Of a DNA stretch of 64,000 nucleotides, positions 5,120 through 32,127 are shown in pieces. Made by a program: the position numbers and the translations under genes. Below the pieces are notes generated by a model. That model was not told where the DNA came from, made no database searches, and was given only the letters and a program-made list of their open reading frames with translations. Numbering within the stretch: position 1 is the stretch's first letter; every line of letters begins with the position of its first letter. The stretch is taken from contig NC_092569.1 of assembly GCF_037975245.1 (NCBI RefSeq), positions 27,657,668-27,721,667 of the forward strand. Reading direction: 5' to 3'. Origin of the DNA: Apostichopus japonicus (Eukaryota > Echinodermata > Holothuroidea > Aspidochirotida > Stichopodidae).

Positions 5120-5398
5120 CCCAGCAAACACAAAAACGTTTTTAAAACGTTTTTAAAACGTTTCGTCTTTTGTTTTGATAACGTTATTTGTGGTGTAATA
5201 AATATGTCACGAAAACGTTTTCAGGCTATTAATTATTTCAAACATGTTTTCGTTAAAACATTAATATAACATTAATATAACATTAATATCTTATGAAAAC
5301 GTTATGCCGACGTTTTTATAACACCACATTTAACGTTATAAAAACATATTTTAGAGGCTCTTTTAAAAAAATTATGAAAACGTTTAGCGTTTACTGGG
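5120..5398. mobile_element. MITE-like element rich in AAAACGTTTT palindromes
   Basis: The termini are inverted (cccagcaaacac and gcgtttactggg, with small mismatches). The interior is a run of aaaacgtttt-type palindromes with direct repeats of 'acattaatata'. The flanks read TA on both sides, which would fit a 2-bp target duplication. It is non-coding; the short open frame across its left part is chance. Confidence 0.55.
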
Positions 5399-6873
5399 TA
5401 TAAAATTCAAAGCAGTGCAGAGTTGTACATGTACCGCGGTGTGCCACGTTCGAGTCGTGAGTCTCGTCGCATCGCATCACTTAACACGTCACATCACTCA
5501 TGTCATATCTTATTTTAATCTTGATGGAATCTCATATGTTATTCAAACTTGTTTATAATTTTACAACATCTCCGATACTGGTATATCTAACAGAAACTTG
5601 AAGAAAGAAAAAAACATGGGTGTAGAAATTGTAGTGAGAAATATTGCTTGCTATAGATGCATAACAGTTGCATTCACTAGCATTGTGAAGGACATTGGCC
5701 AAACTCTCACCCACTCTTGGAGACTTTGTAGGTCATTTATGAGGTCATTGTAGTTATCCTGGCTAGGAATGGCAGACTGAATCTTGGCAAGCCAGCAAAC
5801 AGTTTTATGTTATAAAGAACAGCTTCAGTCTTGTCATTAATGTTCCCCGAGGAACTCCAGACGAAATGTCCATGTTCAGAATATGCAACCGTTTACTTAA
5901 GTTTGCATATGGTAATGCATCTATTCTTGACACCTTGCTGCAATGACTGAATAATAATTTGTGAAAATTTACATCTCGGCTCAACTGTTATACCGATCTT
6001 GTTAAGTCACTTTTAACGCCTGATTTGTATGTTCGTTCACTTAATTTACAGATTGCAAGGAATTACAGAGAAACAATGGAAATTGTACTGATGAAGCTAC
6101 CTGTGACGTCCCGATGGATCTGTCCAATTATGGATTTACCAACAACGGTGGAAGTTCACACCATCAAGCCGCATTGCATTACTCCTTTGTAGCGTTGACT
6201 TTTACAGTGACATGGGAAACAAATGGGTAACATTGGATACAAATGAATAACTAATGCATGTTACCGCACCGAAACACCTATGAAAAATACAAGTACAATC
6301 AATGCTACTACTCACACTACACATTGGCTTCAATAAAATCTCCTGTAAGAGCACATCACGATTATGGGTGTCCTCTATTTAGAGCTGCTGTTTGAATTGG
6401 CTAATGCAGCAAGTAGCGTAACACATCTCCCAAACAGAGGCGCAAACACGTATATACTTCAGAATATGTCCAACAAAATAGAAAACTATAGTGTAAAGTA
6501 CATAAATATATGACATGTTCAAATATGATTAAAATTTTCATTATTATTTAATAAGGGAGATATCAAAGATTACGTGTTCCTTCAAAAACAAGGCTGAACA
6601 AAGCTGACATCATTGTCCTTCAAGTTATGATGAATTTCTATTTATTACACTGTTTATTTTCTGTTTAATGGAGATGGAATATTGATGGGTTATGCAAGCT
6701 TTTGACTTGATCTAATGTTGGTATTGATATCACTGTCATCATTGTTCACATTCTATCTTGAAAACTTGAAAAGTAAACAAACGAGAAAGTTATAGGCTTT
6801 TAGATCCTAGTGGCAGTATGACATCACAAATTTACATAAATGACAGCTCACAGTCATGACTTTTACACTAGAG
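5399..6873. other. No gene or clear repeat seen
   Basis: AT-rich DNA without a convincing exon, RNA gene or bounded repeat on either strand. Confidence 0.4.
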
Positions 6874-7239
6874 CAGGGGTGGGCAACCTTCTTGAATAAA
6901 TGGGCCAGATATAAGGAGTGAAAAATTGACTGGACCTTACCAACGACCTGCTGTTGATTTCAAATCTTTGATTTCGAGAACTTTCAAGCAAGAGGTGTTT
7001 GTATACTTAATCTGTATTCATGAAAACATAATGTCAATACAGTACAGTTGATAATTAATGGGGATAATAGGCCTACCTGACAGCATCATTAGTGATGATA
7101 AATTCTAAGCAGCTAGCTCGTTTTTTTTTGTGGTGATGTAAAATAGATTGATTTTTTTTTCTAGAGACAGTATCACGAGTCGCAAACAAATCACTGGCGG
7201 GCCGCATGTGGCCCGCGGGCCGTAGGTTGCCCACCCCTG
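6874..7239. mobile_element. hAT-type MITE, copy 1
   Basis: The element begins CAGGGGTGGGCAAC and ends with the inverse TTGCCCACCCCTG, a terminal inverted repeat typical of hAT elements. The flanking 8-mers (cactagag and agctatag) agree at five of eight positions, so the target duplication looks decayed. The same family, inverted and with a perfect 8-bp duplication, lies at 58456-58819. The element is internally non-coding. Confidence 0.75.
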
Positions 7240-9040
7240 AGCTATAGAGAATATCTCCTAAGCGAATCAAGACTTGTACTAATTACTGTTTGGGTTGATA
7301 TTCCTCGTGAAGACCTCTGTCATATACGCTAAACATGATGGATATGGATCGTGTACCATTCAAGGTTTTAATTACTATTTAATTTGGCTAAAGGGAACGT
7401 AATATAATTATATAAAGTTCAAATTAGTGGAATTTTCTGTGACCGTGGTTGGAGACTTTTGCTACTTGAAATAGCCCTTGATGTCATTATATCTCTACTG
7501 CATCCAATTATTGTTAAACCTGTTCCATCATGTTGATGCTTTTTAATTGCAGAATATGGTAACCTGGCCTACCTACGTATACGTAGAGTTTAGGCAGGTA
7601 TCTTCTTCTTTTTTTATTTCTTTATTGACTAATTGACTTTTATACAAATAAACATGATAATTTAGTGAGTTATTTAGTATTACAATAAAACATTCAATCC
7701 TTGCCTATATATATACATTTTTAAAGTACACATCATTACCAAGACACAGTGCAACTGCAGAGAAGACAACACGTATACAGTAATACTATTTAAATATAAA
7801 GATCGCTACGTGCAAAACGTTTGAGAAGCAAAACATTACGAAGAAGAAATACTAAACAGGAAACCAAACAAGCAATGCGACCCTATATAAAAACCGGGGC
7901 GCTAACTGACCAAGGAAATCCTGCTTACTAAAAACAGTTTCTAAATCGTGAACAAAAATCAGTGGATTCGGCTTACTCTTACAAAGATAAGATTCAACTT
8001 GTAAGTAGAACTTAACTTTGAAAAGGAAATCCGTTACCTTAGGAATACTTCCCGAGGTTTCCGTATAAATATGAAGTATTTCGAATGAACATGAGAAAGT
8101 TATAGGGATGTTTGAGAGTAAGCTTATAACCCATAAAATGTCTTGTTTTGAAAAACAGAACTGTCTACCAAGAAATGCCTGCTTAACACGAATGTGATTG
8201 TAATGTAATTAGAAGAAAAAACACAAGACGGTTGACAAATATAACATAAGCTACCATGCTAACAAAACCCAATGAATCTATTTTACCCTCGTTCTTTGTT
8301 GGTTAATTTTTTACGTTACACACCCCAACAGTTTTATACATGAGATCCCCATACACGACACAGTATGCCGTTAAAGACAGAATCATGCAAGCCGGTGCAA
8401 TACCACACATATAGTTTTCTATGAGGGTTGAAAAAAGCCTTCAACCCCATTAAAAACTCTTCTATCCTGTGATATTAACGTTGAACTTGCTTCTTCATTA
8501 TGACATACGCCTTGTACAGTCCTTGTATCTTCAGATCGATGTGCTCATACTTATCAATTGATATTTACTACTAAAGGAACTATGATGTAAGTCCATTCAA
8601 ATACATTGAAGGTATATGCTACAAACAAATTAGACAACTTGATAGTCTTTATGAGTGAGCATACTAAAAATAATAAGTATCATGATTGATATGTCGACTA
8701 CTGTTCAGGAAACAAGAAGAAAATATATCCGATAAGAATATCATTGGTCAAACTTTCGACCAATGAAACATACATTAATCACATAGACCTTAAAATGATA
8801 TTTTCTTTTCATAAAGCATGGAATGAACTTGACATTAATAGGACGATAGGGGGGAAAAAATTACATCTGCGTTGTGAATTCATTTTCATTAATTTGTTGA
8901 ACATGCATGGATAGTAATATTTCAATGTTATAGATAGCGTTGTAATGGTAGTACCTTCCTCAAAGAGTAGTATACATTGAGGAAGAGTAGAGAATGTTCC
9001 TCGTAGAGTTTTATAGGTAAAGCGCCATTAAAACGATTTT
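7240..9040. other. No gene seen
   Basis: AT-rich intergenic sequence; no exon, RNA gene or bounded element recognised. Confidence 0.4.
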
Positions 9041-9275
9041 GGAGTGTTAACTCAGTGGTTAACACCGGTGCCTTTCAATCACAAGGTCCCCGGTTCGAGT
9101 CACTCCCAGATTAATGTATGTCGTCCAGTTACAGAGTTGTTGACAATTAACAATTCATAATCATGGACGTTAAATATGAATGTGAGAGACTGACTTCGGT
9201 CAGCTTACGGCTTTGATAAGCCAATTAGGCTTCTTCGCGAGTTCCTGCTTGCAGGAGGATCTAATATACATATAT
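9041..9275 (+). mobile_element. tRNA-headed SINE
   Basis: The head (9041-9107) starts GGAGTG and ends CACTCC, which would pair as an acceptor stem. It has an A-box-like TAACTCAGTGG and a B-box-like GGTTCGAGTCA. The anticodon arm is poor, so this is a retroposed tRNA derivative and not a working tRNA gene. The body ends near 9245-9262 with a hairpin (tcctgcttgcagga) followed by an AT-rich tail. Another 3' end of the same family lies reversed near 22780-22845. Confidence 0.65.
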
Positions 9276-9893
9276 ACATGATAAACGTCACCATGTTTTG
9301 AGGATTTGACATTTGCAGAGAGTCGCAATTGTAACTACAGGATAGTTGAAAAAACTTAAGGTCAGGTTTATAAACTTCAAAACAACCCATTTACATATTA
9401 TAATAAGTTATAGATATATGATTAAAAGTAAAGTGATTTAAAATCAATTTTTTGAGTTGATTTTGCCACATGTTTCAAAAACTAATTCACTGATGCTAAT
9501 ATCGGCAGGGTTTCTGGGCGAGGACATGTTGACAATCGAATGACTTTATTAATTACTTGCTCATTATCTTCCTTTGTTCAATGATAAAATCCAAGAGGGG
9601 TTTCTTCTACAAGAATTCAAAAGATATACTTCCTAAACACATGATTTTCCTTTGAGGGTTTTCGCCAATGGCAGATTAATGTAATAAGTTTATTGCACTG
9701 ATGCATGGAACTATATACATTGAAGACAAGGAAGATTTGTGAGTTAGGTGGGACGCTGTACGGTGATGCGCTATAAAACGCGGTGAAGGTGCAGTGCTAT
9801 TGGCGTTCTTCTTACGACCATTTTAGGCCCTCTTAAAGTAGAGCACGAAAATTGTTTACTTGTGAGTAAAGAGGCATTAAGTTGTTTACACAG

Positions 9894-10200
9894 GGGCGTC
9901 GTAGCCGGTACGGCAGGTCCGGTGAACACCGGACCAATCTTCACGGCGCAAAAAAGAAAAGAAAAAAAGTAGCACTAAGAAAAGAAAAATGGCAAAAAAT
10001 AATCTGGGAGGTATATTTTTCAATAATTTTCAATAATGATGACGGCAAGTAGGCTAATGTGACTACTCTGGCATGGCAGGGGTCTTGTTTTCAAGCTCGG
10101 GAAGTGCCATTTCCTGCAATCTGGGAGGCATTTTTCAAAATTTTCTCAATTACGCTACCCGCCAACCATGGTGGCGCGGAGCGTAGTTTGACCTACCAAA
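9894..10200 (-). repeat. Dispersed repeat sharing sequence with 24880-25000
   Basis: Begins near caggggcgtcgtagccgg and contains a perfect hairpin (gtccggtgaacaccggac). Its reverse complement shares a block (gcggagcgta ... ggcacttcccgag) with the plus strand around 24900-25000. It is probably a DNA-transposon derivative; the exact ends are uncertain. Confidence 0.45.
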
Positions 10201-10717
10201 CTTCCTCCGATAATTATGATAGATGGCCACACTCTGATATGCCGTACCAATTCCAAATAGCTTCCGACGCTCCTGTTACATATGACGAAACGATGAGCTC
10301 TCATATCAAAATCTCTATGGTCACCTATCCCAGTGAGGTTTAGCGTTTAGCTTGTGGAATTTCTATATAGACTTACAGTCTTACAGACCACATTACATTG
10401 ACGATTTTTTATGTCAGTGCAAGTCAATGGGGGAATTTATATATGGAGTATGCTACCTTACAGGCGGTCGCAGATATTGTAAACAGTTTGACCATTAAAT
10501 ACTATAGCAACACACAATTTGTTATGTAAAGATCATATTTTTTGGATTATCGCTTACATGTAATATTGGCTACTATGATTCCTAACCGCTAGCGGGTTAT
10601 AACGGCAGTTAGTCTCCTATCTGACATCCGGTTGTGCAGTTGTATTTTCTGTTTGTGATACTCATAACGTGATTGGATTACAGTAATTGTATACGTTATG
10701 AAAGAAGGACAATTAAA

Positions 10718-13700
10718 ATGGGTGCAGTCGGTTCATCGTCACAGGATCTAATACCAACTCCTACACTGATATTTAAAGGTAAGTCATCGAGGTTAAATAA
10801 ACATATCTTATTGAATGGTGTTCAGATGGTCGAATTACAAACATAATGCTACTGTTTATTGTGATTTCATCTATAACTTTTCGGCCTTTTGGCTAAGATC
10901 ATGTGTAGTATCTGTTCCCTTCGGGAATGGTGATGCACACCTGACGATGATCACACAGTCACAGTCCCGATGCAAGGGGACTGGGGCTGAGAGCGGATCA
11001 GTCGTTTGGTTTTCGTGCCCAGGTTCTTTCCTGGGTGACTTTTTCTTAAAAAGTATTTCATCTATAACTTTACTAACGTTCTTATTTTGAGACGTTATGA
11101 GCCTCAAATAAACGAAGAATTTGACATTCGGACTAAACGAAAAGTATCATTTTAAAATTAACTGTAAGTCGACTGTCTTCAAGAATGAAATAATCGCAAA
11201 CATTTCAAAGCCATGATGTTTTTAGATAGCCTCCATGAATGGGGGTATAGTTTGGGTACATTATATTACTTTATATTCAAAGATAGTCTTCCTATTCTAT
11301 TTCATGTGCATTACATTTATCCTCCACAAAATTGGTGTAGTATACCATATTCTAGTGTGCATTTATAAAAATAATGGTGTACTACCGAATATATATTGTG
11401 AATTAAATTAAAAACAATACTAATAATCGAAGCTGCCAATTGCACTGACAACGACACTTCATTGGCATCGACACAATAACACTATGTCGCTCACTTTACA
11501 GAGTAAACGTCAAATTATACAGTTTGTAAGTTTAAACTAGCACTTCAGTCCTTCAAGTTTTGAATCGCTTCTGTCCTTAACCCTCCCCAGCTGACCTCAC
11601 TCCTTTTGTTCCTTATAGGGTACCTCTGCCTTCCCCCTCAACTGTTAGTGCAAGCTTGATTTCAGTTATTTGTTACTCGATTTCAACAGTTGTCCTTGAC
11701 CTGTCGTAATTATAACTTCTCGGGTGTACTCCACACCACTATAGCCTATACGTTATATATTTAGCATCACTTGTTTACGTTGTACAGAGGTGACGTGCGT
11801 GTATAGAACCAATTCCTTTGCCTGACACCATTTTGTTTATTTCTAGTGAACCGTTTCATGACCATTTCCGCACACTTACACGTACTATCTTATTCTTTTC
11901 ACTAGTGCGAGTTGTGCACTCCTTATGTTTAGCCTATCCATAAGGAAGTAGTTGGTGAGAACTATTTCCGGCACAACGTTCTTTGAACAGATGGAGCAAT
12001 TGCCTACATTTGCTTCGAGAATGCAAAGAACTTGAAATTGGTCATAAATGGTATTTTGTTTTAACCGTTAAATACATTATACAGACGGAGATACTGTGCA
12101 TATGTAACAGTAACTTGTAATAACTTGCCTTATGTTTATTCTCTGCCACGTACCAACGTGAAGATGCTGTCAGAATAATGCTTTCAAAAGTGATCAAAAT
12201 GAATGTAAACATTGTTTCGTGGACTACGATGAAACTTTGATATTCGCAAGACAAAAAAGACGAATTCACCTTTTGAAGGGTAGGGGACTGAGTTTATCGT
12301 AGGTCACATGTCAAAGTATATTGAACCATAATGATTTTCATCTACTCCTGTGTTTGGTTATTATTATACAACTTTTACCATGATTGTGGTTCTATGATAT
12401 GTTCGACATAACTGCAAGATTCGGTTAAATTGAGAGAACAGCTTACATTTTACATTCGTTCTAAATCCATAAACTAGGTTGTTCTGGAACTCCACCCACA
12501 TTTCTCGTGACTAGCGTTAGTGAGGAATTTCATTTCTCAATCGATAAATATGTATGAAATGTTTGTTGAAAGTGTAAATTTCAAACAAATTTTCCTGATA
12601 TATCTACTCCTATGATCAACAAGTTTCGCTTATATTGCCATATTTAAATCATATTTTCTAATGGTGGTAAGTTCCTATAAGGTTATATCGATCATGTTGT
12701 TCAGCTTATTTCATACTTTATCTTTACCATCAATACAACGTCATTTTGAAACCTTGCATCTAGTCGTCATATAAGCAGCAAAGCGGAACAACATAGAACA
12801 CAGGTACTACATAAATGTAATTCTTAAAGTTTTTAACCAAAGTAAAAAGTGGATGAGGGCAAAATTCTTTCTAAACGTATATGTGGTGGCGCCCTGACCT
12901 CCATGACAAGAGATGTGTTGACATTTATTGCATTACGTTCTGTAGTATTTCCCTTTAAAAAGCATGTGACAAAATTTTGATATGGTAAAAAATGCATAAA
13001 AACAGTTATAAATGTTATCATTAAGTGATATGGGACATCACATGAAAATTTGGTTTCTTCAGACTCAGGTAAACAATATGCTACTTCAAGACCAATATTC
13101 TACGAGCAGGTTATGGATTCATCCTCATCGGACTTCTCACCATCCTCAGACTACTCAGAATCTTCGTACTTCTCCTCTGAATCATCCTCCTCATCCAGCG
13201 CTCCGGGCCCAAAGTCCGCCTCCGTCACTAAAAAAGGGTCAATCGTAAAATCAACTTCTACTACCTCACCAACTACAAAAGTTAACTCTTCGTCAATTTG
13301 GAATACTACAAAAGCCACAAATTATGGAATTCTCGAAGGTATACGATACATACAATTATTACATTTTCAAAATATGCTCAGTGTTCCTGGGTTTGTTTAT
13401 CATGCATGTTTTATGACTTCTTTAATGGCTAATTCAGTGGCAGACAGTTTAGAATTAAAAAAAAAAAATCTGTCAGGTGAAAACCTCCATCTTCACATGT
13501 ATATCTTGTTCCTAACTATGATCGATTGAATAATTAACGTATTTTGACGTAGATTGACTTTCGCTTCTTCCAGGAAATAGTTCACAGTATAGGTGGTGAG
13601 TCTCTTCAACAAGGTAGATAACCTTCAAAATCCTTTTCTATCCTCTTATAAAAAGGGGAACTTTGTTTTCGTAGAAATATTATTTCCCCTTTTGAACAAT

Positions 13701-16509
13701 TAGTGAGCTTTATATTGCAATGCAAAAAAAGGGGTCTTTAACTGCGTTGCCATGATGACATTATTCGCTCTGCTACTACCAAATGGGGAAAAATCAGCAA
13801 ATATGCAAAATTCATGTCTTGGCCATACAAAAATGCTATGAGAATGGAGATAGAACAGGGATATCTATTTTACAGATTGTTCATTCCAAGCGCCATCTTT
13901 AATTAATGTTTGATATATTCAGTATGGTATTACGCAAAATAGACAAGGTAGTCAGTTTTCAATTTTTCGAATACACAAATACAAAAATTATTCTCTTAGG
14001 AAATGTAAAACTATCATGATAAGTGATCTTATCTTCCCTTCTTTCTGATGTCAATATATTTCTAACAGCAAAATGTTCAATATCGGTCAAAGGCACACCG
14101 TATATTGCGAACTAAGTTTATTTGTATACCGGATCTCTCTATGACAGTGCTTTCAAAACTTCTGTTAGGACAATCAGTAATTAGCGTTGCCTTGAACATC
14201 CGGTGTCAAGTAATGTAATATGCAGAGCAGATCGAACAGTAAAATGCAAACAAGTAGTGAAAAATGCTTAGTCATTATTGCATTATGCAATATAAATGCA
14301 TGAAAAATACAAGCAAGTAGTGAAAAATGCTAAGTCATTATTGCGTTCTGCAATATACATGCATGAAAAATACAAACAAGTTGTGAACAATGCCTAGTCA
14401 TTATTGCATTATGTAATATACATGCATGGAAATTCAAACAAGTAGTGAGCAATGCTTAGTCATTATTGCATTATTCAATATACATGCATGAAAAATACAA
14501 GCAAGGTGTGAACAATGCTTAGTCATTATGTAATATACATGCATGGAAATTCAAACAAGTAGTGAATAAGCTTACTCATTATTGCATTATTCAATATACA
14601 TACATAAATACCTTGTTAAAGAGAGAGTGGGGTGGGGAGAGGGGCTGTATACTCCCATATTTTGCCAAATGAAAAGTGTATACAAAATTGCTAATAGCTG
14701 ACAATGCAAGAGCCTCTGTGATCCCCTCAGGACCTTTAACGTAATATATCCATTCATTCCCATATATTCTATTAGGTTATGTATTTTAAGACTAAATCAA
14801 CTGACCGTGTTTACATTGTAAGGTCACAGACACTGATTGTAGTATACAATGTATACATTGTTAGTTGCGTTCAGATTCAAAACTGGAAATACATTTGATA
14901 TCAATTATTGGGGGATATTCAGAACTCACGTTTAGACCCAACATAATCAAGTTCATTATTGAACTGGTAATCAGGTTTCGCTTAACTCTATCTTGTGTTC
15001 GACTCGAACTTCATTGGTAAGGGACTTGTCTCGGAATTGGACAAGCAGTGGACTCATATGCAACCCTTAAATTAATATCAACACTACTTAAGTCCATCCG
15101 ATAGTTATTGCCCCATTCACTTCCGAAAATAAAAGGAAGGTTTATGTAAAAAAATATATATATATAAACTTGCTATGAGCAGGCTATTAAAAGCTATCGA
15201 CAGACCTGGCGTATTGTATCATTCGAGAAGGCACGAAAGTAATACATTGTCAACCAGCCAACAATTTATATTTTCATTTTGAATCAATTAATTTGTCCGC
15301 TTAAGAAATATTAATAATTTACCAAAACATGATAAATGATATCTTCTCTTCAGATGACAGATTTGTAATTTTTGTTGGGTGCGGAATTGCTGGCCTTCTC
15401 TTCATGCTGCTTCTCCTTATTGCCGTCTTAGTTGGTCATCGGTGAGTAGCTTAATAACAAATATCAATAACCTGTGAATGATTCTGATAAAAGAAAGCTT
15501 TATTTTCTTTTGTCTGAGCACTCTCCTGTGTGTGTGTGTGTGTTTGGTGTTTACATAAATACAGGGTATCGTATATAGACAACATGGAAGGTTGGTAATT
15601 CCGAGCTCCGAGAAAGATGAGGAATAAACATTTCATCGATGACATGGCTAAAGCAGTGCCGATACTACGGTGATCGGAGAAGAAAATAGTGTTTTGTTAA
15701 AATTTACCAAAATTTACATAACGTGCAAGTTCTGTGCAAGAAACGAAGCAGAAAGCTACACCAAAATATTACGTTGAAAATCTATGAACGCAGTAGATGA
15801 ATTTGTTGCCACAATGGAGGTAGAGAAGTAAGTCTACTCTAGCAGAGAAAAAGGAGAATCCGAAATGTTGGCAGTTTTTCACTACTTGGAGAGTAAAAAG
15901 AAACAATTTGGTAAAGGATGTTTGTGGAAACCTTTTGTTCTAATATCTTCATGTTCGACACCGGGGCTCTCTGAAGCAACTTAATATGCCCGTAAATAAA
16001 TGTATAGTATAAGAACTTAAAGCCGGATTAAAGCATTCCTACTGCCTGATTAAAGTATTATTTTCCACTACTTCATTACTTTACCACCAACCCTTATCCC
16101 TTCCTTATACAGAAGGCATCGTAGACGGAAGAACAGCAGAAGAGATAACGTAACAGTAATACACTTAAACACCCAACCATCAAGAGGGTGCTATGTGACT
16201 GGAGTTATGACTGACCGTTCTCACAATTTCGTAAATACCAGACCTAGTTGTCCACCTGTTCCGCAGCAAGACAAGCGAGACGAATGCTACTACGAAGCAA
16301 TTTCTTCAACGATGCCAACACCGAGCATCTATGAACAGCCGCGTGAAACTGCAACATACAATGATGGATGCACAATGAGTTTCCAATCAGCAAACGTGAG
16401 AACTAATGCCCAAAATACTCAAGACGATTATTTGATTCCTCTTCACAACCCATCGACGAGAGGACAGTATGTGGCGTCGGATAGCCCATACTTGGCAGTG
16501 TCGGACTGA
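10718..16509 (+). CDS. Gene A: orphan single-pass membrane protein with tyrosine-motif tail (273 aa, 4 exons)
   Basis: I do not recognise the family. Exons: 10718-10778, 13063-13338, 15354-15441, 16113-16509; all junctions are GT-AG with phases 1,1,2, giving 822 nt including TGA. Residues 1-20 start MGAVGSSS. Residues 21-112 are Ser/Thr-rich (Ser runs near 40-70) with two N-glycosylation sequons (NSS, NTT) near residue 95. One hydrophobic helix spans about 116-140 (GLLFMLLLL), followed at once by a basic stop-transfer RRHRRRK. The 132-residue tail has tyrosine motifs GCYV (169), CYYEAI (202), SIYEQP (215), DYLIP (248) and SPYLAV (268). YxxP motifs are typical Crk-type SH2 ligands, and SxYxxV resembles an ITIM. 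There is no signal peptide, so the best topology is N-out/C-in signal anchor. A polyadenylation signal lies at 16540. The paralog is gene B. Confidence 0.8.
10881..11054 (+). mobile_element. U2-snRNA-headed retroposon with perfect 17-bp target-site duplication
   Basis: The first about 37 bases match the 5' domain of U2 snRNA with one difference: TCGGCCTTTTGGCTAAGATC, then a branch-site-pairing region with GTAGTA. After TCTGTTC it departs from U2 completely: no U2 Sm site or stem-loops III/IV are present. The body contains stems CAGTCCC/GGGACTG (10962-10968 with 10977-10983) and CCCAGG/CCTGGG (11018-11023 with 11030-11035), and ends in a T-rich tail. The identical 17-mer atttcatctataacttt flanks it at 10864-10880 and 11055-11071, which is direct evidence of retrotransposition. 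It lies in intron 1 of gene A. It could be a U2-derived SINE family member or a one-off U2 chimera. Confidence 0.8.
14240..14610. repeat. Minisatellite, about six copies of a ~63-bp unit
   Basis: The unit contains 'caagtagtga', 'tagtcattattgcatta' and 'aatatacatgcatg', repeated six times with substitutions and small deletions. It lies in intron 2 of gene A. It is head-to-tail without spacers, so it is not a CRISPR array. Confidence 0.8.
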
Positions 16510-16539
16510 ACATACTTTCTTTATATTTACAAAGACTGA

Positions 16540-16545
16540 AATAAA
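16540..16545 (+). promoter_or_regulatory. Polyadenylation signal AATAAA of gene A
   Basis: AATAAA lies 30 bases past the stop codon of gene A, a normal position for an animal 3' UTR. Confidence 0.5.
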
Positions 16546-17014
16546 AGACAAAAGCTGTTGCTTAATCTATGCGGTTTACCGTCTAGTAAGTTATTGCTGT
16601 TTTCGCTGCTTTTCTCTGTAATGTTGAAATACCTCAAACTGAGTAAAAGTCTCATATACCACGTGGAAATCTATGAATACGTTAGAAAATAACTCTCGGA
16701 TCACATCCATGACAGTGAGAAGATACTCCCCAATGGCTAAAAATATTTTTTTTTTGGAAGTGGCTTTGAAGCCGACATTACAACCATTTTGTTTCACTGC
16801 TGAACAACCAAAAGTACCCTCAACATCTTCCATTTTTCATATTTTTACTCCATTGTTTGACTAGAGGTGATAAGACAACTGTTATTCTGTTTCATACGCG
16901 ATAATTGGAATGAACATTCCCTCAAAATAAAAGGGAAAAATAATTTCTATCATGTCACCAATTTAATTGTGTTAGCTTCTTCTAAGTTTACAGAAAGAAG
17001 TCAGTATGTAACTA

Positions 17015-17900
17015 AGTAAGTACGTAAAACTTTATTGCTCCATAAAATCGAAAATTTCTATACTCGTACATTATAAGAAATACAAAAATATATAAATAAC
17101 TATATTCATATTTACAAATAATAACTAAGAGGGTAAGATCAAGTTAAATACTTAAAGACAGAGAGCCTATACCCATCCAATGACTAGGCAACCACCTAAC
17201 GACTCAAATTGCTGTTATTATAATTTTCAGCTTTTTTAGTGTGTTGTCAACACGATCCCTTTCTGTCTTACTAACGTTACCCCCTCAGCAATTGAGGCAG
17301 TATCTTCAAACTCTACAGATGGTAGCATTAAAGAACATATCTAAAATTTCCTTACGCACATTGAAAAGTGACATTTTTCTCAAACAATGTAATATCGAAT
17401 TCGACTTTCTAACCAGGACGTCAACATGATCCGTCCAAGTCAATTTATCGTTGAAAACCACTCCCATATATTTATAGGTAAACACACTACCTCATTCTTT
17501 TTAATAATTACAGGCGGTGGTGGAATAACATTATGTCTAAAGTCGATGACCATTTCTTTTGTTTTAGAGACTAATTGTAAAAAGTCACAGAAGTCATCGT
17601 ACACTTTTGCGTTAAAGTGAAATGTCGACACTCACTAACAATTGAAGGATGCGACAGTTGTGTATACGTTGGTAACAATTAGTAGCACAATTGAACTATT
17701 ACTACACATCAAACAACATATTGATATTTCAACATTTTACTCTAATATCAGAAAGCCTCTGATAATATTGAGCCATTTTGAATTTAGCATATAATTTCAG
17801 AATTTGTGAAACATCATCTACACATTCAATCGTGATAAGATCATCAAAGAGCAATTATAAGCACAAGGTTTTGAAGATTCAATTACCTGTCATTTTGTGT
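17015..17900 (-). mobile_element. Degenerate LINE, reverse-transcriptase C-terminal region
   Basis: On the minus strand 17640-17230 reads SKTKEMVIDFR, later WTDHVDVLVRK, CLRKMSLFNVRKEIL and a GGN-S-K-x-RD end. This order is the palm/thumb and C-terminal region of a non-LTR reverse transcriptase. Upstream (17880-17640) a weaker match (DDLITIE) may be the catalytic DD region. Frameshifts and stops make it dead. The 3' UTR seems to run to about 17015. It lies between the convergent genes A and B. Confidence 0.65.
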
Positions 17901-19149
17901 ATTTTTTTTATGAAATAAATAAAATAAATTATAACGAAATGAGGTTCTTCTTTATTCAATAACTCAAGAGTACGATTGAAAGTACTCAGATAATAACGAA
18001 CTCGAACTCGAGTCTGTAGTCGGGTTCTCAAATGTTTACTCGAACGCTTTTCTACTTGGTAGTCTGATCCTAACTAGGAGAACTCGAACCATGGTATATA
18101 GTACTAGTCTTGGATGAAACAGCCGATTCTCATAGCTGGTACAACACCAACTGTTCTTGTCCCACAACCGTGCAACAGTAACTAGTACTTTGTGTTGGTG
18201 TAACATGTGTTACTGGTCGCACTTTAACAACTGCCAAGCTGTTTATTTGTTCCATGTAAGACAATGAACTACGCGACTGGACAAGGAATCCATGAAGATG
18301 AAAATGTCTACGAGATGAAGGAAAGGAGGTACGCGTTACAGCTTGAATCCAGTTCACACATCTCTTTGAATTACGCCAATTCGTCAAGCCGGGAACGATA
18401 AAAGGCCATGTTCGGGCATATCCATAAGCCTACTTAGAGCATAAAACGACTAGATACGACGTCATTTTAGAATCGCGTAAACTCGCACTAAATGACAACT
18501 TGGTACAGCAACTACTGTTCATGACCTACAACTATGCATCAGTAATTACTACTCTGTGTTCGTAACAGGGTAACATCTATGGGGGTCATTTTCGACGAAT
18601 ATGCTATGCAGAATATAGTTGATGGTCATATTATGTTAGTTAACGATTGTTGTTCTGTTTAGTGAAGAGAATCATAGAACTCTAGAGAGCAATGGTTGGT
18701 ATTTTCAATTCGTGGAAGGTAAGGAAGTGGGCGAAGGGGATGTTGTGGCCATGGGCTTGGATGTTTTAAATCTCTCTTAGCTGTTAGATGCGACGATTTC
18801 TTAAATGACCATTCAGAAGACTAAAAACCAGAGAAAATGGTATTTTTAATTTAAATGTATAAAAAATGTTCGATTATTTTTATTTATATATATGCGTTAA
18901 ACAAAGAACTATATACATTTTTGGTTTTCGTTCTAATAGGTCTTTCACAGAAGAGAAGATAGTTCGGATAATTTCTATAGTAATTGGCACTTATATCTGG
19001 ATGGATCTGGATTTTTCGACACAAAACAATGGTTTGGAAATTTAAGCTTCTGAGGGAGACTGTCAGTTAATGATCGGTGTGACGAATGACATCGGAGAAG
19101 AATTCACATTTCATGTAGATGCTACTATCAACTTTTCTTTTTCTATTGT

Positions 19150-19262
19150 TAAGTTTTTCTCTCTTTTTTTCTTTTTAGGGAGTCTCCTACTTTGTTAAGC
19201 CTTGCAGGCTTTATAGGAGACTTCCCTTCACACTGTAAAATGCGATGGAACAAATAAATATA
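19150..19262 (+). repeat. Retroposon 3' end with nested hairpin
   Basis: Contains an inverted arrangement gtctccta ... taggagac enclosing the hairpin aagccttgcaggctt, then an A-rich tail with aataaata. It resembles the 3' terminus at 3355-3450. No upstream reverse-transcriptase frame is seen. Confidence 0.4.
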
Positions 19263-20109
19263 CAAGATTATAAATTTTCGTATTGAATGCTACGATCTTA
19301 GGTTTGGGATCTCATATCTAGAAAGATTGGTTAGTCATTACGTTTTGGGGGTTGGGAGGAGGTGCAGTAGAGTTGCTGTGAACGTAGATCTCGTGAGATG
19401 GATATTGCTTGTTTGTATCAAGCGGAACTACTTGGTTAATCACAATAAATAGTGTATCGGATATATTTGAGCTTCTTCTACCTTTGCCATGTTCATCTTA
19501 CTACGATTAAGAGCTCACAAAACATTGTTCTCTTGGCTATAAATATAACTTTATTCATAGTCACTGTTATACAATCACTAAACTAACATAAATTTTATGT
19601 TATATTCTCATGAATTTTAACTCAGCTAATCACATTTTTATAAATTACATATTATAACTAATACATTACAAATTAACAAATGGACTGTCCAACAAACCAA
19701 TACTTCCCGCTAAGATAAAATCGTTCATTTTCTTGTTGCATATATCAAATATATATCATTCTATATAATGAAAAAATAACGTTTGCTGTAGAGAAAAAAA
19801 TAGTTTCTGTCGAATATCTCTCATGCTCATATCGTGGTATTTACAATGAAAACATGAAAAGGCACTTGATGCAACTTTTAAAATTCATTGCACAGTTTTC
19901 AATCACCATGTTTCTCGAAACTAAAATCTCAAAATAATAGCTTAAATTCACAACTTTTATATTAGATTATTAATTTTATTGATTTGACGTGACACAGTCC
20001 AATACTAACATGAAAATTGTCTGTGCGAGGAAAGGTTGTCGTATTCAATTACGGATTAATACCATGTTAACCATTGAAAAGTAAAACTAGCGCATCACTT
20101 TAGCAGGAC

Positions 20110-20230
20110 GTATCTGTTATTCTCTATAGTGATAATCTACCGTAACCCTTATCCTTAATACTCTACTGTGATAACTCTACCGTGATACTCTACCGTAATA
20201 CTTATCCGCAATACTTTACCGTAAGCTCGG
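20110..20230. repeat. Degenerate short tandem repeat
   Basis: Variants of 'ctctaccgtgata' and 'cttatccgcaata' recur about seven times in 120 bases. Confidence 0.5.
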
Positions 20231-20758
20231 TAAAATTGTATCCCAAACGCAAAAAGTCACCAGTATTGGCTTCCTATTTGAACGTGTTAAAAGATTGACC
20301 TCAAAAGTTTTCAAAATTATTGCAAACTCTGTTCAGTTTTTAATCTTATAATATATCATCGAACCATTGATGGGTTTCAAAGTGTAGACAATTTAATGTA
20401 TGAGTGAGCAAGGATTTGCTAAGATATGCTAAGAAATTTTAAGAAATGCTAAGAAACTCTATTTGACGTTTGAACATGAATGACTGTTATTTGACTTTCT
20501 AGCACTTTCAGGGCAAAACATAAAACCTTTTTCGTCACACGTCACTCATGTTAGAGATAACAGACCTAATTATGTTATTCATCATGTTATATTATGTAGT
20601 TGTACATTGAATATACCACGTGAAGGGAAAAATAAACACACGGTAACTTCTTACGCTTCAATATTTCATATAAGATGACTCGTTACTTACTTTTTCTTTC
20701 ACTAACAAGTGTCACTAAGTTTTAACCTACTTCGCAAAACGTTGCATTCATGTTTCCA

Positions 20759-20872
20759 AATAGAATTACTCCCTATACAAACTAAGACGTTATTAGAGTT
20801 TAACCTGTACATACCCTTAATTAATGAGTTTCCCAAATAAATGAATTGTTACGTATAGGGAGTAATTCTATT
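20759..20872. repeat. Perfect 19-bp inverted repeat with 76-base spacer
   Basis: aatagaattactccctata at 20759-20777 is exactly inverted at 20854-20872. It could be a tiny MITE or a hairpin-forming site. No target duplication is evident. Confidence 0.6.
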
Positions 20873-21481
20873 ACTATGATTAGAATCCGTACTAAGTAAA
20901 GTTTGTCATTTATTAAATGAACTGAAATATGACTAGTCAAGCTCATAAACTGCATATGAGATTGTTGTTTCTTATGACAAAACATGCTTTTTTAACTTCA
21001 TAAGAACCAAAAAAAAAAAAAAAAACCCGGATGACATTTAACACCATTTGACTTTGAAAAAAACAATTGATGCGTTGTAATTGTGTTATTAGAGGCTATA
21101 AAAGTCATACGTTTTCCAGAAAATTAAGATAGAAGGGATCTCATATAGTTTATGTGTAAGACTGATCGGCATAATCACTTTAATGACAAGTCACAGATTA
21201 CTCCTGGACTAATTCCATTAATTTGTGTAGTATATAACATATCAAACTTAGTGATGTGCCTAGAATCACCATTGGAAGCAACATAATCAGAACAGTAAAC
21301 ACACTTACTTAACTATTCCTTCTCTTTTTCATTTCTGTCATGGAACAACGTATTCTTGTACTATAGTGTTGATACACGAGAAGATAAGTGGATGAAATAA
21401 CAACAGATGAAAACCTAACTGTTCAAAACTAAGGAAATCTTGCTACTTCTTTGATTTTTAAGTGACACCTCTCGGAACCAA

Positions 21482-24400
21482 TTACACGTTATCGTGCGCT
21501 GTCAACTCTCCTATTGGCGGTGGCGTTTGGTTAGGAATCAGGTAACCTTGATGATTACTTGGAGTATCGTCATAGTTGCGTATAGCTGTTCCCATCGGCT
21601 GTTCATATATGTTTATCATCGGTGAAAATGTTTCGTATTCGCTGCCCCTTTCACTCTCTTGCTGCTCAATACGTGAAGGATTGGAGATATTATGTGTGTA
21701 CTCGTGATCCTGACCATACGTAGTGACAGTGGTATAGCATCCACTTGGTGGTAGGCTGTCCAGATATGTTACTGTGTTGTTACCTTTAGCCTTGTACCTC
21801 CTTCTGCGGTGTCTGCTTGGTAAAGAGAATGAGAGTTGGTGGTTAAGTTATTAGGGATAGGTTTATCCTACGTTAGTCTACGTTAATTCTGCAGGGATGT
21901 AGCCAGATTTCTTAATGAAAGGCTTACTTGTTGAATTCAAAGTGCCGAGAACAGCACTGTTACTACTGTAAATTTTAAAGTTTTGTACCAAAGTTAAAAC
22001 TGGATCGTGCTATAAATCGGTAGCATTTGCTAATAGCATTACAACCTTAAGAACTGGGAATATTCGACAAATCCAGTTGTTGGGATTTGTTGGAATTACA
22101 CAAATCCTTAGTTCTAACTGAATTCCTAATAGCACATGCTACCGATTTATTATATTTATCAGCACAATCTAATTTTTACTGTGGTACAAAGTTTTAAGAT
22201 TAACAGTAGTTATACTGTAAACTCAGTCACTGATAATTCAGTGACATATATAAGTTCTTTGTATCATAAAACTTAATGACCTATATTTGAAGGAAAATAA
22301 AGGTTTTGAGCATTATATCTTAGCAGCAAATGATCGTACTAACCTAATAATAAGATATATTTAACAGGCGTTGATCCCGACGGTAACACCTTTAGTAAGT
22401 TCCGAAGGTCGTTATGACAACTTTGAAAATTAAACAATGAAGTTCTTCATAAATTTCTTTGATTTAAGCTTTCTTGGATTATCGAGATATTTAACTTTCA
22501 CCCGGTGGTTTGGAAGTAACTAATCATTGGTTCAGCCATGCTATTGTTAAGGGGTCTTTCTGCTCTTACTTGTGATTGAAACAGATCAATCATGGTATGG
22601 CAATGACAATCATATAACTATTAACCAATCAGTTCTCAAGACTTCTCAAACGAAAGAAGGTCCACCGGGATACTTTGTTCGCAGGAACACTTGATAATTG
22701 GATTTCATCGGTTTGATATATTTTACACAATATAATTAATGAACCGAAATCGCTTTCTTCTGAATAAACATAATGTATGTCTGTATGTATCTATGTATGT
22801 ATTTATGTATGTAATTTAGATCCTCCTGCAACCATGAACAAAGTTTGCACCTAAAAACTCCTAGGGAACTTTTTCTCAGATCTCAATTTTTTGATTGACA
22901 TCATTGGAATCACCATACGCGACAGTTGCAGCCAATCATTTGGGATAATAATGTTTTAAAGTTGCAATAAGTTTTGGCAAAATGGACATTAAAGGTGAAA
23001 TATGATGGTATTGTTGAATTTCAATGGACATGATTTCATTACTTTAATCCAAAGTGTTCATTGCTATTCTATTTGTCACACAATTTCCTTCTCAAACAAC
23101 CATGTCGTCGACATCCGACTTTGGGCCCCCGATTCAAAGTTTGTTTCCCCATGCTATTATAGTGATGCAGAGGATGATTGAGTACGCACAACCCACGGAC
23201 CATCCTATCTAGCCTTCTCGGTGCCCACCACAGACGACTGGGTCCGAAGCAACCACACAGCCATACCCACTTCACAGTATGGCAGACTGACAGGCAAATT
23301 AACTACTATGAATGAATGAAAGATTCAAAACTTCTTAATTCTGCCATGTTTGACACTATTGATATTCTATGCATCACCATCTTTTGGTTTTCCTGAGTAA
23401 GCTACTTACCGAAGCCCAATTATGATGACCACGAATAAAAGCAACATAAAGAGTAGACCAACGACAAGTCCTAGGGGCGCTGACCTGTTTACTAAGGAGA
23501 AGAAAATATTCAAATTAGTAAGCTGGTTAAAAGTGTTTTTCAGTAAAGATGATAGATTGCATTTAAGCCTTGAAAGAAAACATTCCGCACCCTGTTGACA
23601 CTGATGTGCGTCGTTTCATGTTGAATTGAATTAAATGTAATACGTTAATTCTATCAATAGTCATGATAGAAATAACCATTGTAAATCGAATGTTTCTAAA
23701 TTCGTAATGCACAATCATTTTTTATGTTTTGTTTTGTTCTTTCTTGAGGTAATTGGGGTAGGGTCAACGTGGAATATCCCACAGTAAGCCTTAAAGGGTG
23801 TGAAGACTCGCGTAAAGAAGACACGTCTAACGCCGGTAATCTGACCTAGTTTCGAATGAGGTGTAACAGAAGTGTTAGACACCACCATCGATCCCAGAAA
23901 ATACACACACAGCTTGCTACCGTCGGTAATGAGACACTAGTGTACAGTCAATACCCACTGCACTGTACAAACGGTACAGCGATGGACATCAGGTCCAGCT
24001 AAAGATATAACAAAGTATCATTTTCATTACGATCTGCATTTTGTAGCGACAAGAGAAAAACTTCACTTGCAAGCAACGGAGAGTTAACTTTTTCACAGGG
24101 TGACACGCGGTTCGGGCGAGTCTTCAATGCCTCATATAGGTTCTATACACGGAATAATTTTAGGGACACAGTTCTGGCAGCGGAAGTATCTCGTTCCGAT
24201 TCTGGAATCAGAACGAACAGATTAGTACATTTGTCATTGCTATTAACAACTGTAATGTACCCAGTCTTTGCTGAATTGACATATATCAAACATGAATGAA
24301 TGTTACATAACAATAATCAAACAATCTCAAAGCGAATTGGAGGAACACCGTCTGTGTGTGTGGGGTTCAGTGAACTGACAACTTTTTTTTTTACCTTCAA

Positions 24401-26861
24401 GAATTTCAGATCCGTGGATTGTTCCACTTGTCGATGAAACTTTTCCAGACGCAGAGGTGGGAATTGAAATTGCTATTTGTCTCGTGTTAGGAAACGATGA
24501 AGTAGGATATGTACCAGGAGATACCCACGAACTAGAAACTTCGTCGTCGGACACTGGCTTTGATGGAGCAAAAAATTTATCTGTGGATATACAATGATAC
24601 GTCGTGAAGTAAATATCACGTGTAGACACTATCAACTTCAGTGTTATATATGCAATGCGATAAACAATGTATAGTATATTGTTTGCCTTAGTGAAGATGG
24701 ATCACTGTTCAGGATGCCACTCCACGTTCTGCCAATGCCTAAATGTCACTATTGATTGGTTGCATTGTACCTTTCAAGTTGACAGCAAGATAGAGAGATT
24801 TAAATTTGGACAACTAATATTGCATCAACTGTTTAAGATCAGGCGCGGCGGAACGGGGAAATTAATGGGGGGGGGGGGCTAATGCGTGGAGACTATCTAA
24901 GCGGAGCACCACCATGGGTTGGTGCGGAGCGTACAAGAAAATTTTGGGTTTTCAAACCCCCAGATGGCCGGAAGCGGCACTTCCCGAGTGTTTTATGCTG
25001 CGAATACCTAGCCCTAAAATATGGGTCTTAAGCCTACAATTTCTCAGATTGCACGTAAAAATCTGTAAAAACATTATAATTTGTATATTCGATGGTGTTT
25101 TAAGAGAGTAGCTAGACGTTTTTTAATGTAGTAAAGGGATGTTGGAGAACTGGCTGAAATGAGGCAAGTCATTGGCCTAAGACGAAGTTGTGTTGCGCTT
25201 ACCGGTACTCACACTCACTGCGTCCACTTTTCACGGGGCGTGAAGACGCGGTTGGGGTGACAATGTGGTCTATAGCCAGGGGACGGGCCGAGGGTCACCC
25301 CAGCATTGACTAAAATTATTACACCTATATAGTATACGTGTGCATCGGACAGATCGACAAGTATGCATTGAAAAATGGGCAGATGGACGTTTCGTAACCT
25401 TGGTAAATATTGGGGGGAGGGCTTATCATGCATTTTCCCCTCAACTTTTGCATTGGGGCTGAGCCCCCCCCCCCAAGCCCTCCCGGTTCCCACTATTTAA
25501 GATTATGAATGGACTGAGGCGTCAAATCATTATCGATTCAATCTGAGAGGATCATTAAATGTTACATATACTAACCTACTAAGAAAAAAACAATGTAAGT
25601 TAATATCTTAAAAGGACTATAGATGCAAATACATAGGATTTATATCCCACGCACCTTACTACAACAGTGAGGTTCAGTTGTAACGATAAATCCTATAGAA
25701 AATTTATTTCCTAAAGAACACACCTCCTACACATCCCTCACAAACAGGAATATTTTCTATGGACATTTTCTAGCACAGTTGTGGAATAAAACTTATCAAC
25801 ACCAAGATTCCACCTGAAGTCAATATTTGAGCAATGATAGTGGAACTCACGCTAGTCAGGACTAATAAAAGAGTATTTCCATATAGTCTGGTGGATTTTT
25901 GAGCGATGGAAATAGAATTTGTTCAATGAATATAATCGACTGATGACGTCGTCAATAGATTGGCATTTTTAGTAAGTTGTAATTATCGAATGACGCACAT
26001 ATATAGGGAAAAAATACAGAACTCTGTGTAACATTGTGAACTTTTTTTTCGGCCAATCGTCTGTAGCTGAGGTGAACCGCTATATATTCCATATCATCAT
26101 CTCCGTGACTCTAACGTTGAAGTCTATAAATATATTATATGAAAATTTTAAGGAATCCCATGAAGCAAATAACCATCCCCTTTAAAAATTTTGCAAACTT
26201 TCGTTTTTGCCAAAAGTGCGACACAGTTGTATTTTCTATTTACTGATTATTTTACCATGATCATATGATATCTTGCCAAGCATAAAGACGGTGGGGGGGG
26301 GGGGGAGGGGTGCGTATTCTAAAATTCAAGGGTAATGTATACAGTGGAAATAAACATGAAATAAAAGTTAACATTTTGAAGGTGCGAGTGCAGTTACGGC
26401 CTAACTGTGTCTGGGTTCAGGTATTATTTAGCAAAATTAGCACAAGATTGACTCCAGCCCTACTTAAATACTGACCTATCTTATTGCTGAATGTTATTAT
26501 TTCTACGGTAACTATTTCGATAACAAATATTAATGCAATTTAACTAAAGGTATCCATTGTTGTGTAAATCGTGCATAACTCTTGTTTTGGTTTCGGTATT
26601 GCTCTACTGGTGAAGAGAGAAACCTTTTTGATCGAGACTATTGCTACTCGTTATTTCCTACCAGACCAAGTAAGATCAATGATGACGACTATGAATAATT
26701 AAGAAAACATCGCAGTTTATAATGTTACAAAACAGAGACGACTTCTTTTTCGACAACTTATGAGTTGATACATCACCTGTCCATATTGTTTGGTACACTG
26801 CTGTTTGGCCTACGGTAGGACGCGGTGCTGCATTCGCCTTACTTGAAAGAGTAGTACCCAT
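21482..26861 (-). CDS. Gene B: paralog of gene A, orphan single-pass membrane protein (227 aa, 4 exons)
   Basis: Family unknown. Minus-strand exons: 26861-26777, 24580-24395, 23491-23410, 21812-21482; GT-AG junctions with phases 1,1,2 as in gene A, 684 nt including TAA. The N-terminus is MGTTLSSK. A Ser/Thr/Pro-rich exon ends SEIL, as gene A exon 2 ends GIL. One membrane helix spans about 96-117 with GLLFMLLL, as in gene A, then RHRRRR. Tail motifs align with gene A: GCYT (144), SEYETF (177), NIYEQP (187), GYLIP (208). There is one N-glycosylation sequon (NRS, 92) next to the membrane. Intron 1 is about 2.2 kb, as in gene A, and the sequence just upstream of the ATG is similar (aaATGGGT). The ectodomain has diverged most. 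It is convergent with gene A, about 5 kb between stops. Confidence 0.8.
21960..22215. mobile_element. Foldback element in intron 3 of gene B
   Basis: Two arms of roughly 90-120 bases are imperfect reverse complements. They share 'aaatcggtagcat', 'tgctaatag'/'tgctattag', a 'ttttgtacca'-type block and 'actactgt'. The arms meet near 22070. It is non-coding and MITE-like. Confidence 0.65.
22780..22845 (-). repeat. SINE 3' end, reversed, with (CATA)n tail
   Basis: The reverse complement reads ttgcaggaggatctaa followed by repeated acatacat, matching the 3' end of the SINE at 9041-9275. A 5' head is not recognised. It lies in intron 3 of gene B. Confidence 0.45.
24843..25495 (+). mobile_element. 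Composite repeat bounded by poly-G and poly-C runs
   Basis: The left side has a run of G near 24868-24879 and the right side a run of C near 25461-25472. The outer flanks are loosely inverted (gaacggggaaatta and ccggttcccactatttaa). The interior shares the 'gcggagcgta ... ggcacttcccgag' block with 9894-10200. It lies in intron 1 of gene B. Ends and superfamily are uncertain. Confidence 0.4.
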
Positions 26862-27647: not shown

Positions 27648-28224
<577 letters not shown>

Positions 28225-29063: not shown

Positions 29064-30803
29064 TTGCATTCACAGACGGATTTCTTCTACGCACGATTCA
29101 ATCATGGCAACAGGAGCTTAACTCCCCTTACAAGTGACATACGACTGGGCATCATCGCCATATCATATGTACTTCAAACCAAGACGGAGAAGGATTTCAT
29201 CCAAGGGTGCAGTGTTTATAAACTAAAGCGTATAGATGATATAAGACCGGAAGTAACCGACCCGAGACACACACGTCGTTTCCTTTATCTAATATATTAT
29301 ACAATCCACTTTAAGAAGGAACGAGCTAAGTTGGACATTAGCAGTTTTCTCAATACGCTTAGATGAAGATGTAAACTTGGATATAGGATATGGATATATT
29401 ACTACCAAGTTCACATCAATTCAGTAGCGGGCGAATAATGGCTTGTTTACTAGATTCACGACTGATCTCCCGACAACAGAGATAAATTTATAAGTCGGGT
29501 AATATATGGTACAACTTCATTTGTTCAAGACTTTATCATTGTAGTTGGCAATGGCTCGAGAATACATGATTAACGAATTCACATGTTACAGGTTTAAACA
29601 ATTCAAAGCACAATATCCAATATAAGTCATACTGCACAACTTGTGGAAGTTGTTTTTCCCGACAATTAATAATTTTGGTAGGAATTGATGAATAAAATTA
29701 GGTAACTCCGACAGGTAAACGATTTGAAAAGTTGAAGATAATGCCTTCCTCTTTGAACCGATAATCTCGTCTATTCATGGTGTCACCTTTCAAATATTTC
29801 TCCAAAGCTGTTGTAAGTTTTACATTGAGCTGAGAGTTTATATTGTATTTTTCTTGGATAACAACATGACAGTCATGCCGTCATGTGTTATGAGAATAAT
29901 AACTTATACATAGTTTATAACTTACCTAGAATCGTCGGAATACAGAAGAAGGACTCACACTTTCCCCCCATTTTAAGCAAAGTTACTCCTGGTTAATATA
30001 TAGATATATATATATATATATTGTCCAGTCTGTTAAAGTATTGCAGTGACTCTGGTGTTCCTACTCCACTTTTAAATTGAGAAAAATCGGAAAAATTTCT
30101 GGTACAGCATTATACTTGAAGCGTTGTTAGAGTGTAAAGGAAATTCATCAGGAAACAAAAGAGCAGTATGGAAGTTTCGATAATACATAATCACAATTCC
30201 CGTTTCAATTCATGCACATTTCCGATGATGGCCATGTACACCTGACTAGTGGAATCTGAACAGACAATGCCTCCCTATTAATGAAGATAACTTCTGCGCG
30301 TGGTGTGATTTACACATGATTGAACAAATAAGCATATAATATATGTTATGTTTTCTTGTAGCAGAACTACACTGAAGAACATATGAAGTAGAAATGAGTT
30401 AAAATATTCAATGCTATTCAATATATTCAATATATTCTATATTCAATATTCAATAGAATTCAATATTTAATGCTAGTTAAATCATTTATACTCGCCTGCT
30501 TCGTAACATTACTCATGAACCAACAAAATTACAGTAATTGTATTCACTCCTCTGAGTAAATTTAGTATCAATATTATAGCTTGGTATCTTCACTTGTTGC
30601 AAACGAGGGTTTTATTGTCTTTCCCGGCTATTACTCACTTTTGCTTAACCTAAAACACGCTTAGTTAAAGGAAGACTCGACGATTCTCAGTAAGAAGAAG
30701 AACTGGGCAGTGCCAGGGGTGTTTACCAGCCAGCGAGTATGTCTCGGGTTGTCACCGCGCAGCATACAACATGCACGCGCACGTGCGGTGACCGATGTAA
30801 TGG
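29064..30803. other. No recognised gene
   Basis: An open frame of 100 codons on the plus strand (29064-29366) has no recognised family or splice context. The rest is AT-rich, with a low-complexity 'attcaatat' stretch near 30410-30475. Confidence 0.3.
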
Positions 30804-31530
<727 letters not shown>

Positions 31531-32127
31531 TCAACTTGGACGTCAAAAAAAATAGGTTATTTGAGATCTCTATTGAATTAAGTTCGTATTGTTTACATGT
31601 GAAGACTTAGGCTAAGTTTCATTGAAAAGGGAAATCAAATCAACTCATACACTGGTTCATATAAACGGGCGCTCCCAACGTTTTTGTATATGGAAGCAAG
31701 TTACAGGGACATTTATAACCCTATGGGCTAGTCTAAGCCTAATGTTAGGCCTACCTTCAGTTTATATAATTATAAAGATTGGCAGCGCTAGTGTGATAAG
31801 TCATATACCTAAGGCCCAATGTTATGTGTGTAACCGTACACGTTTATTCGCACATAGCATGGAAGAACCAAATATTGCTCACTTAACTTTCCATAAAACA
31901 GTTTCATTGCTTAGGATTACAAAGCAAGTTTTTTTTTTCAAGTTTTCTTCAGTTGTTTACAAATATGTCTGGAAGGAAGTTCCCAGTCCTATGATATGAT
32001 GCACGTAGAGAAAATGCTTCCAACATTCATTGTGTACATACAGTAATTTCACATGTCTGTCACAAATGCAATTCGCACCAAACAAACAAGAATAGTTACG
32101 TCATACAACACATCCGTGCAGTCCATT

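Follow-up and report, generated by a model that had tools for sequence, protein, structure and literature searches.

Two tail-to-tail genes of Apostichopus japonicus predicted to encode divergent single-pass membrane proteins with tyrosine-motif tails

The phosphorylated motif pYxxP is the consensus for the SH2 domains of the adaptors Crk and CrkL, and choanoflagellate Crk is described as binding it too (PMC5043372). In the DCBLD receptors it is likewise pYxxP that binds the Crk/CrkL SH2 domain (PMC6029619). Single-pass proteins that lack a leader and yet place their N-terminus outside also have a precedent, TEMP (type III endosome membrane protein), whose orthologues are given in the published account as mammalian only (PMC3901140). 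Here we describe two neighbouring genes, A on the plus strand and B on the minus strand, in a stretch of 64,000 nucleotides (nt) from Apostichopus japonicus (contig NC_092569.1, positions 27,657,668 to 27,721,667), referred to below as the window; all coordinates are those of the window. Judged from their sequences, A and B are paralogues, that is, diverged copies of one ancestor. They may represent an old inverted, tail-to-tail duplicate whose tails act as phosphotyrosine docking strips, a tentative reading which we hold with close to even confidence.

Each gene is modelled with four exons, with splice phases 1-1-2 and GT-AG introns throughout. The models encode 273 amino acids (aa) for A and 227 aa for B, with stop codons in place and exact coordinates, confirming an earlier reading of this DNA made from the letters alone (the sequence-only reading), in which both four-exon models had been said to close exactly. 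The features that it had listed as shared, namely a GLLFMLLL helix, a basic stop-transfer, an MG..SS start and aligned tail tyrosines, were all found in both models. The exons are as follows:

10718-10778, plus strand: A exon 1, encoding MGAVGSSSQDLIPTPTLIFK, without a signal peptide; phase-1 donor at the 99.9 percentile
13063-13338, plus strand: A exon 2, Ser/Thr-rich outer part, phase 1-1; donor region alike with that of B at 20 of 30 nt
15354-15441, plus strand: A exon 3, transmembrane helix with GLLFMLLL; DNA match to B over the donor, E 3e-4
16113-16509, plus strand: A exon 4, basic stop-transfer HRRHRRRK, tyrosine-motif tail and stop TGA; DNA match to B, E 9e-5
26861-26777, minus strand: B exon 1, encoding MGTTLSSKANAAPRPTVGQTAVYQTIWT
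24580-24395, minus strand: B exon 2, Ser/Thr-rich outer part, phase 1-1
23491-23410, minus strand: B exon 3, transmembrane helix with GLLFMLLL
21812-21482, minus strand: B exon 4, basic RHRRRR, tyrosine-motif tail and stop TAA

An AATAAA is present at 16540, beyond A exon 4.

The kinship of the two genes is clearest in the tails. In two-sequence BLASTP without low-complexity masking the tails match each other with E-values of 5e-13 (A as query) and 8e-9 (B as query), and with 4e-6 and 8e-6 when the search, now masked, covers all six frames of the window; 39 of 110 aligned columns (35%) are identical, giving a z of 12.4 against 300 shuffles. Exon 3 reaches a z of 3.7 against the same number of shuffles, its score of 36.5 lying above the shuffle maximum of 34.0. 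Exon 1 has a z of 4.4, yet one shuffle reached 26.0, above the 23.0 of the real pair, and by shuffling alone this exon is not secure. Exon 2 (z 2.5) is not alignable, because its best shuffle, at 43.5, exceeds the observed 32.5. These results bear out the earlier observation that A and B are little alike outside the tail, the outer exon being unalignable and the tail alignable. At the DNA level, a 63-nt match between A and B spans the exon-3 donor and extends into the intron, while another, of 120 nt, starts 38 nt within A intron 3 and crosses the exon-4 acceptor; in the same search the exon matches were outscored by two matches outside exons, one inverted and 39 nt long, the other a dispersed repeat of 88 nt. 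The dispersed repeat (CTCGGGAAGTGCC...) lies at 10096-10177, in the upstream flank of A, and at 24906-24988, in B intron 1 (73% identity over 88 aligned positions).

A third copy was sought with a profile of A and B in six-frame stretches of the window of at least 15 aa, which gave nothing better than E 4 besides A and B themselves. One lead, 18095-18178, resembles positions 169-194 of A (43% over 28 residues) and ends at a stop; its E was 0.67 when the window was searched, 0.23 in BLASTP on the six-frame set and 0.007 for a 900-nt piece alone, and it was treated as a probable chance match. The interval between A and B also holds a short ATG frame at 18264-18398 (plus strand) with the tyrosine motifs ENVYEMKE and LNYANSS and no Pfam match, and an open stretch at 17309-17491 (minus strand) which we take to resemble a reverse-transcriptase fragment.

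The models of A and B are consistent with the sequence, being backed by splice sites, by homology at the junctions and by the pairing of their first exons (see below). Splice sites were scored with an untrained metazoan weight matrix and ranked as percentiles of all GT or AG sites in the window. Five of the six donors lie above the 95th percentile, the exception being the A exon-2 donor at 88.8, as do four of the six acceptors, those of exon 2 being lower (A 94.4, B 91.8). Similarity between A and B anchored on the junctions exceeded that of random GT pairs at donors 2 and 3 (p 2.4e-4 for each) and donor 1 (p 0.023), and that of random AG pairs at acceptors 3 (p 0.004) and 4 (p 0.024); at acceptor 2 it was no better than for random AG pairs (p 0.29). 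An in-frame alternative donor for A exon 2, at 13477, beats the donor used on the matrix and would add 46 aa, giving a protein of 319 aa; the shorter exon is favoured because the donor sequences of A and B are similar. When introns 1 and 2 were searched for extra phase 1-1 exons of at least 90 nt (acceptor score 1.5 or higher, donor score 2 or higher), there were none in B and just three overlapping versions in A, all ending at 13476.

Two further elements were seen in the introns of A. In intron 1, U2 spliceosomal RNA is matched over its full length at 10873-11081 (plus strand; 47.4 bits against a gathering score of 46 bits), perhaps by a U2 pseudogene or a U2-derived short interspersed element, with no second copy found in the window. 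Intron 2 contains a tandem array at 14242-14608, made up of five in-register copies, of whose four spacings three measure 62-63 nt and one 116.

Both proteins contain a single strong helix, with a maximum 19-residue mean hydropathy of 2.9 in A and 3.3 in B, and an outer part in which serine and threonine make up 39% (A) and 32% (B) of residues. Within 15 residues of the helix, lysine and arginine number 2 before and 8 after in A, and 1 before and 7 after in B; from this excess a C-inside orientation is predicted. As drawn, and by hydropathy only, the models have one helix but lack a signal peptide at the N-terminus, a point on which the sequence-only reading made no remark, and the N end is not strongly hydrophobic (among the first 30 starts, the best 9-residue mean is 1.6 for A and 0.3 for B). 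The simplest reading of these features is that A and B would be leaderless, N-outside, reverse signal-anchor proteins that cross the membrane once.

Tyrosine motifs align along the tails as GCYxT, YExx, IYEQP and xYLIP, four being shared out of seven in A and nine in B within the aligned columns. The coincidence of four tyrosines has a p of 0.0007 against random placement, in a test that ignores common descent, and 8 of the 16 tyrosines that are aligned are shared, compared with a tail-wide identity of 35%. Two YxxP sites, YEQP and YLIP, stand at matching places in both tails, and a YxxPhi site is aligned as well, reading YEAI in A and YETF in B. In the mechanism that we propose, an old inverted gene duplication would have yielded A and B. 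If both are expressed and lie in the membrane as predicted, kinases of the Src/Abl type could phosphorylate the tail tyrosines, perhaps in response to a putative ligand of the outer part; the phosphorylated YEQP and YLIP sites would then recruit Crk-type SH2 adaptors, while the YEAI/YETF site might either bind a Src-type SH2 domain or act as a YxxPhi endocytic signal.

Were that last role the principal one, the tail would be a trafficking device, with YEAI and YETF as endocytic signals and with recycling between endosome and surface in place of signalling. The alignment of the site in both tails suits this idea, and TEMP, also leaderless and N-out, is reported at the plasma membrane and in early and recycling endosomes; in the same account, however, its distribution was unchanged after loss of a putative sorting motif (PMC3901140). 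Moreover, IYEQP and YLIP, which apart from the basic cluster are the longest blocks kept exactly in the tail, are not YxxPhi sites, and we regard a purely trafficking tail as rather improbable.

Several observations weigh against the docking-strip reading. YxxP is no commoner than the composition of the tails gives (p 0.13 for A, 0.18 for B). For exon 4 the Nei-Gojobori method gives a dN of 0.57 and a dS of 0.78, a dN/dS of about 0.73 and thus weak tail-wide constraint; the differences are spread flatly over the codon positions (42/49/47); the 39 identical residues compare with a mean of 33.6 under neutral substitution at the same divergence (p 0.083); and the clustering of the identities is just slight (21 runs compared with 25.5, p 0.049). 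Codon usage, scored with a table trained on three other open reading frames of the window, lends modest support to the models, since a fraction of 0.0095-0.074 of null stretches score equally well and the mean score is slightly negative for A exon 2 and B exon 4.

Other measures of the tail bear on the same question. Its longest identical run, of five residues, has a p of 0.17 under neutral substitution, and silent codon changes accompany 15 of the 39 identities, where 12.1 would be expected (p 0.23). In 20,000 simulations for each gene, the open frame survived unconstrained drift to equal divergence in 0.7% of cases for A (131 codons) and 2.2% for B (109 codons); an open frame is thus improbable under free drift, a point in favour of our reading. 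A fair reading is that the tail is fast-evolving coding sequence with short kept blocks, RHRRR, GCY, QQ, IYEQP and YLIP. The sequence-only reading had gone further, suggesting that an adaptor code is kept in the tail; with the dN/dS, codon-position and identity figures above, strong selection on the tail is unsupported. Its companion proposal, that the outer part diverged much faster than the tail, stands in so far as the one is unalignable and the other alignable, but finds no echo in dN/dS, which when taken separately is no higher for exon 2 (about 0.64, from a dN of 1.03 and a dS of 1.62) than for the tail, the exon-2 value coming from an alignment too poor to trust.

The remaining adverse points concern the N ends. 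Both proteins start with MGxxxSS, which speaks against an N-outside topology, and we take these N ends to fit the N-myristoylation pattern PS00008. Myristoylation at Gly2 would hold the N end in the cytosol, in conflict with the charge-based topology: the Ser/Thr-rich part would then be cytosolic, and the helix would form a hairpin or span the membrane in reverse. Lunapark (PMC3817238) and ANKRD22 (PMC8478909) are examples of N-myristoylated proteins that have membrane segments. Set against this arrangement, the charge bias places the C side inside, a reversed span would leave the basic cluster outside, and the central proline described as required for the ANKRD22 hairpin (PMC8478909) is in neither predicted helix of A and B; we would give a myristoylated, cytosolic N end only a small chance. 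A combination of the two, in which A and B would belong to a lineage-restricted leaderless surface family that has kept MGxxxSS, with N-myristoylation and N-end translocation competing to give two topologies and the Ser/Thr-rich part on either side, appears very improbable.

The leaderless, N-outside reading also depends on the first exons being the correct ones. It is unlikely, but to be reckoned with, that the true first exons encode signal peptides and lie elsewhere, in which case A and B would be ordinary type I receptors and the MG..SS exons a decoy or an alternative start. A phase-1 intron behind a short first exon commonly marks a signal-peptide exon, and the similarity of the two MG..SS exons is modest, both in the shuffles described above and in their DNA (p about 0.02). 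A strict search upstream (donor at least 1.5) for signal-peptide-like first exons left A without a candidate (3001-13062) and gave 17 for B, of which 14 are Met runs from microsatellites. Relaxing the cut-offs to a donor score of -0.5 and a hydropathy of 1.8 does yield two weak candidates for A, at 3566-3641 and 6302-6344, and 75 for B, 67 with Met runs, the best of the other eight being 28959-28818; compared by eye, the candidates of A and those of B have nothing in common. Long trinucleotide arrays at 27650-27850 and 30800-31540 produce spurious poly-residue open reading frames in several frames, and because of them false candidates crowd the first-exon searches.

An in-frame TAA three codons ahead of the B ATG stands against such an upstream exon, as does the pairing of the MG..SS exons. 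When the candidates are ATG exons whose phase-1 donor has a score of 1.0 or more, this pair ranks first both among the 64 pairs (8 exons of A by 8 of B) found upstream of exon 2 within 4.5 kilobases (kb) and among the 1,224 pairs within 7 kb (9 x 136), where it scores 23.0 against 17.5 for the runner-up, which uses the same A exon. The 7-kb test is worth about 144 pairs, because 120 of the 136 B candidates come from repeats as runs of M, D or I. The pair was perhaps chosen by the sequence-only reading for its likeness.

Neither A nor B reaches the cut-off of any Pfam family, and among PDB sequences there was no match at E below 0.1 (best 0.66 for A, none for B, 0.15 for the A and B profile). 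The best Pfam score of A was to TMEM154 (PF15102; 17.5 bits, E 0.0039, cut-off 30.3 bits), with no match for B. Kinship with TMEM154 was rejected: A still scores 15.1 bits (E 0.021) with its exon-2 part reversed, and 13.1 bits with the helix alone. Because the match outlasts reversal of the outer part, the score is put down to the helix and composition. With the A tail as sole query, prokaryote collections gave nothing credible and viral contigs no relative; a match in a Chthoniobacterales contig, at E 9e-6 against candidate stretches only, centres on the search word NAQNTQDD, the contig being one that carries bacterial open reading frames, and was set aside as chance. Among the titles and opening lines of abstracts listed by text search, none describes such a pair; as this kind of search cannot find a sequence, the negative says little.

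Elsewhere in the window, a 502-aa open frame at 39904-41409 (plus strand) contains a Glyco_transf_61 domain (E 2.3e-14). Two alike sets of membrane-transporter-like open frames lie at 46726-48652 and 56562-57509 (plus strand), of which the part at 46726-47049 alone has a match, a weak one to MFS_1 (E 0.0024; 17.3 bits, cut-off 33.4); they resemble a tandem pair of monocarboxylate-transporter-like genes.

How, then, does the pair compare with described proteins? Small receptor genes commonly have a first exon followed by outer, membrane and tail parts, so the layout of A and B is not unusual in itself. Transmembrane adaptors of the LAT/PAG type carry a juxtamembrane CxxC palmitoylation site; unlike these, A and B have no CxxC, the cysteines of A being at 122, 168, 188, 200 and 228 and that of B at 143 only. 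TEMP resembles A and B, as these are predicted here, in having one helix, an outside N-terminus and neither signal peptide nor known domain, but is described as a protein of 111 aa with its helix at 30-50 and a much shorter outer part (PMC3901140); the likeness is one of description. Choanoflagellate transmembrane proteins, among them PTSG_05573, share cytosolic YxxP sites and are proposed Crk targets, but differ in having several YxxP repeats (10 in PTSG_05573) and, in some cases, SH2-like or thrombospondin domains (PMC5043372). The DCBLD1 and DCBLD2 scaffolding receptors are alike in the YxxP sites of the inner tail, which there bind Crk/CrkL SH2 once phosphorylated and here may do so; they are reported to have 7-8 such sites (PMC6029619), compared with two per tail in A and B. 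The outer domains that mark DCBLD receptors are CUB, LCCL and FV/FVIII; in A and B no such Pfam domain was found at E up to 10 (HMMER filters on). A and B look like a fast-changing receptor-like pair, ordinary in kind and with a plausible putative function. Should their orthologues prove to be confined to one animal group, they would offer a clean case of a receptor-like duplication in which similarity was lost in the outer part and short adaptor sites were kept, and would add one more YxxP membrane protein to the proposed early partners of Crk.

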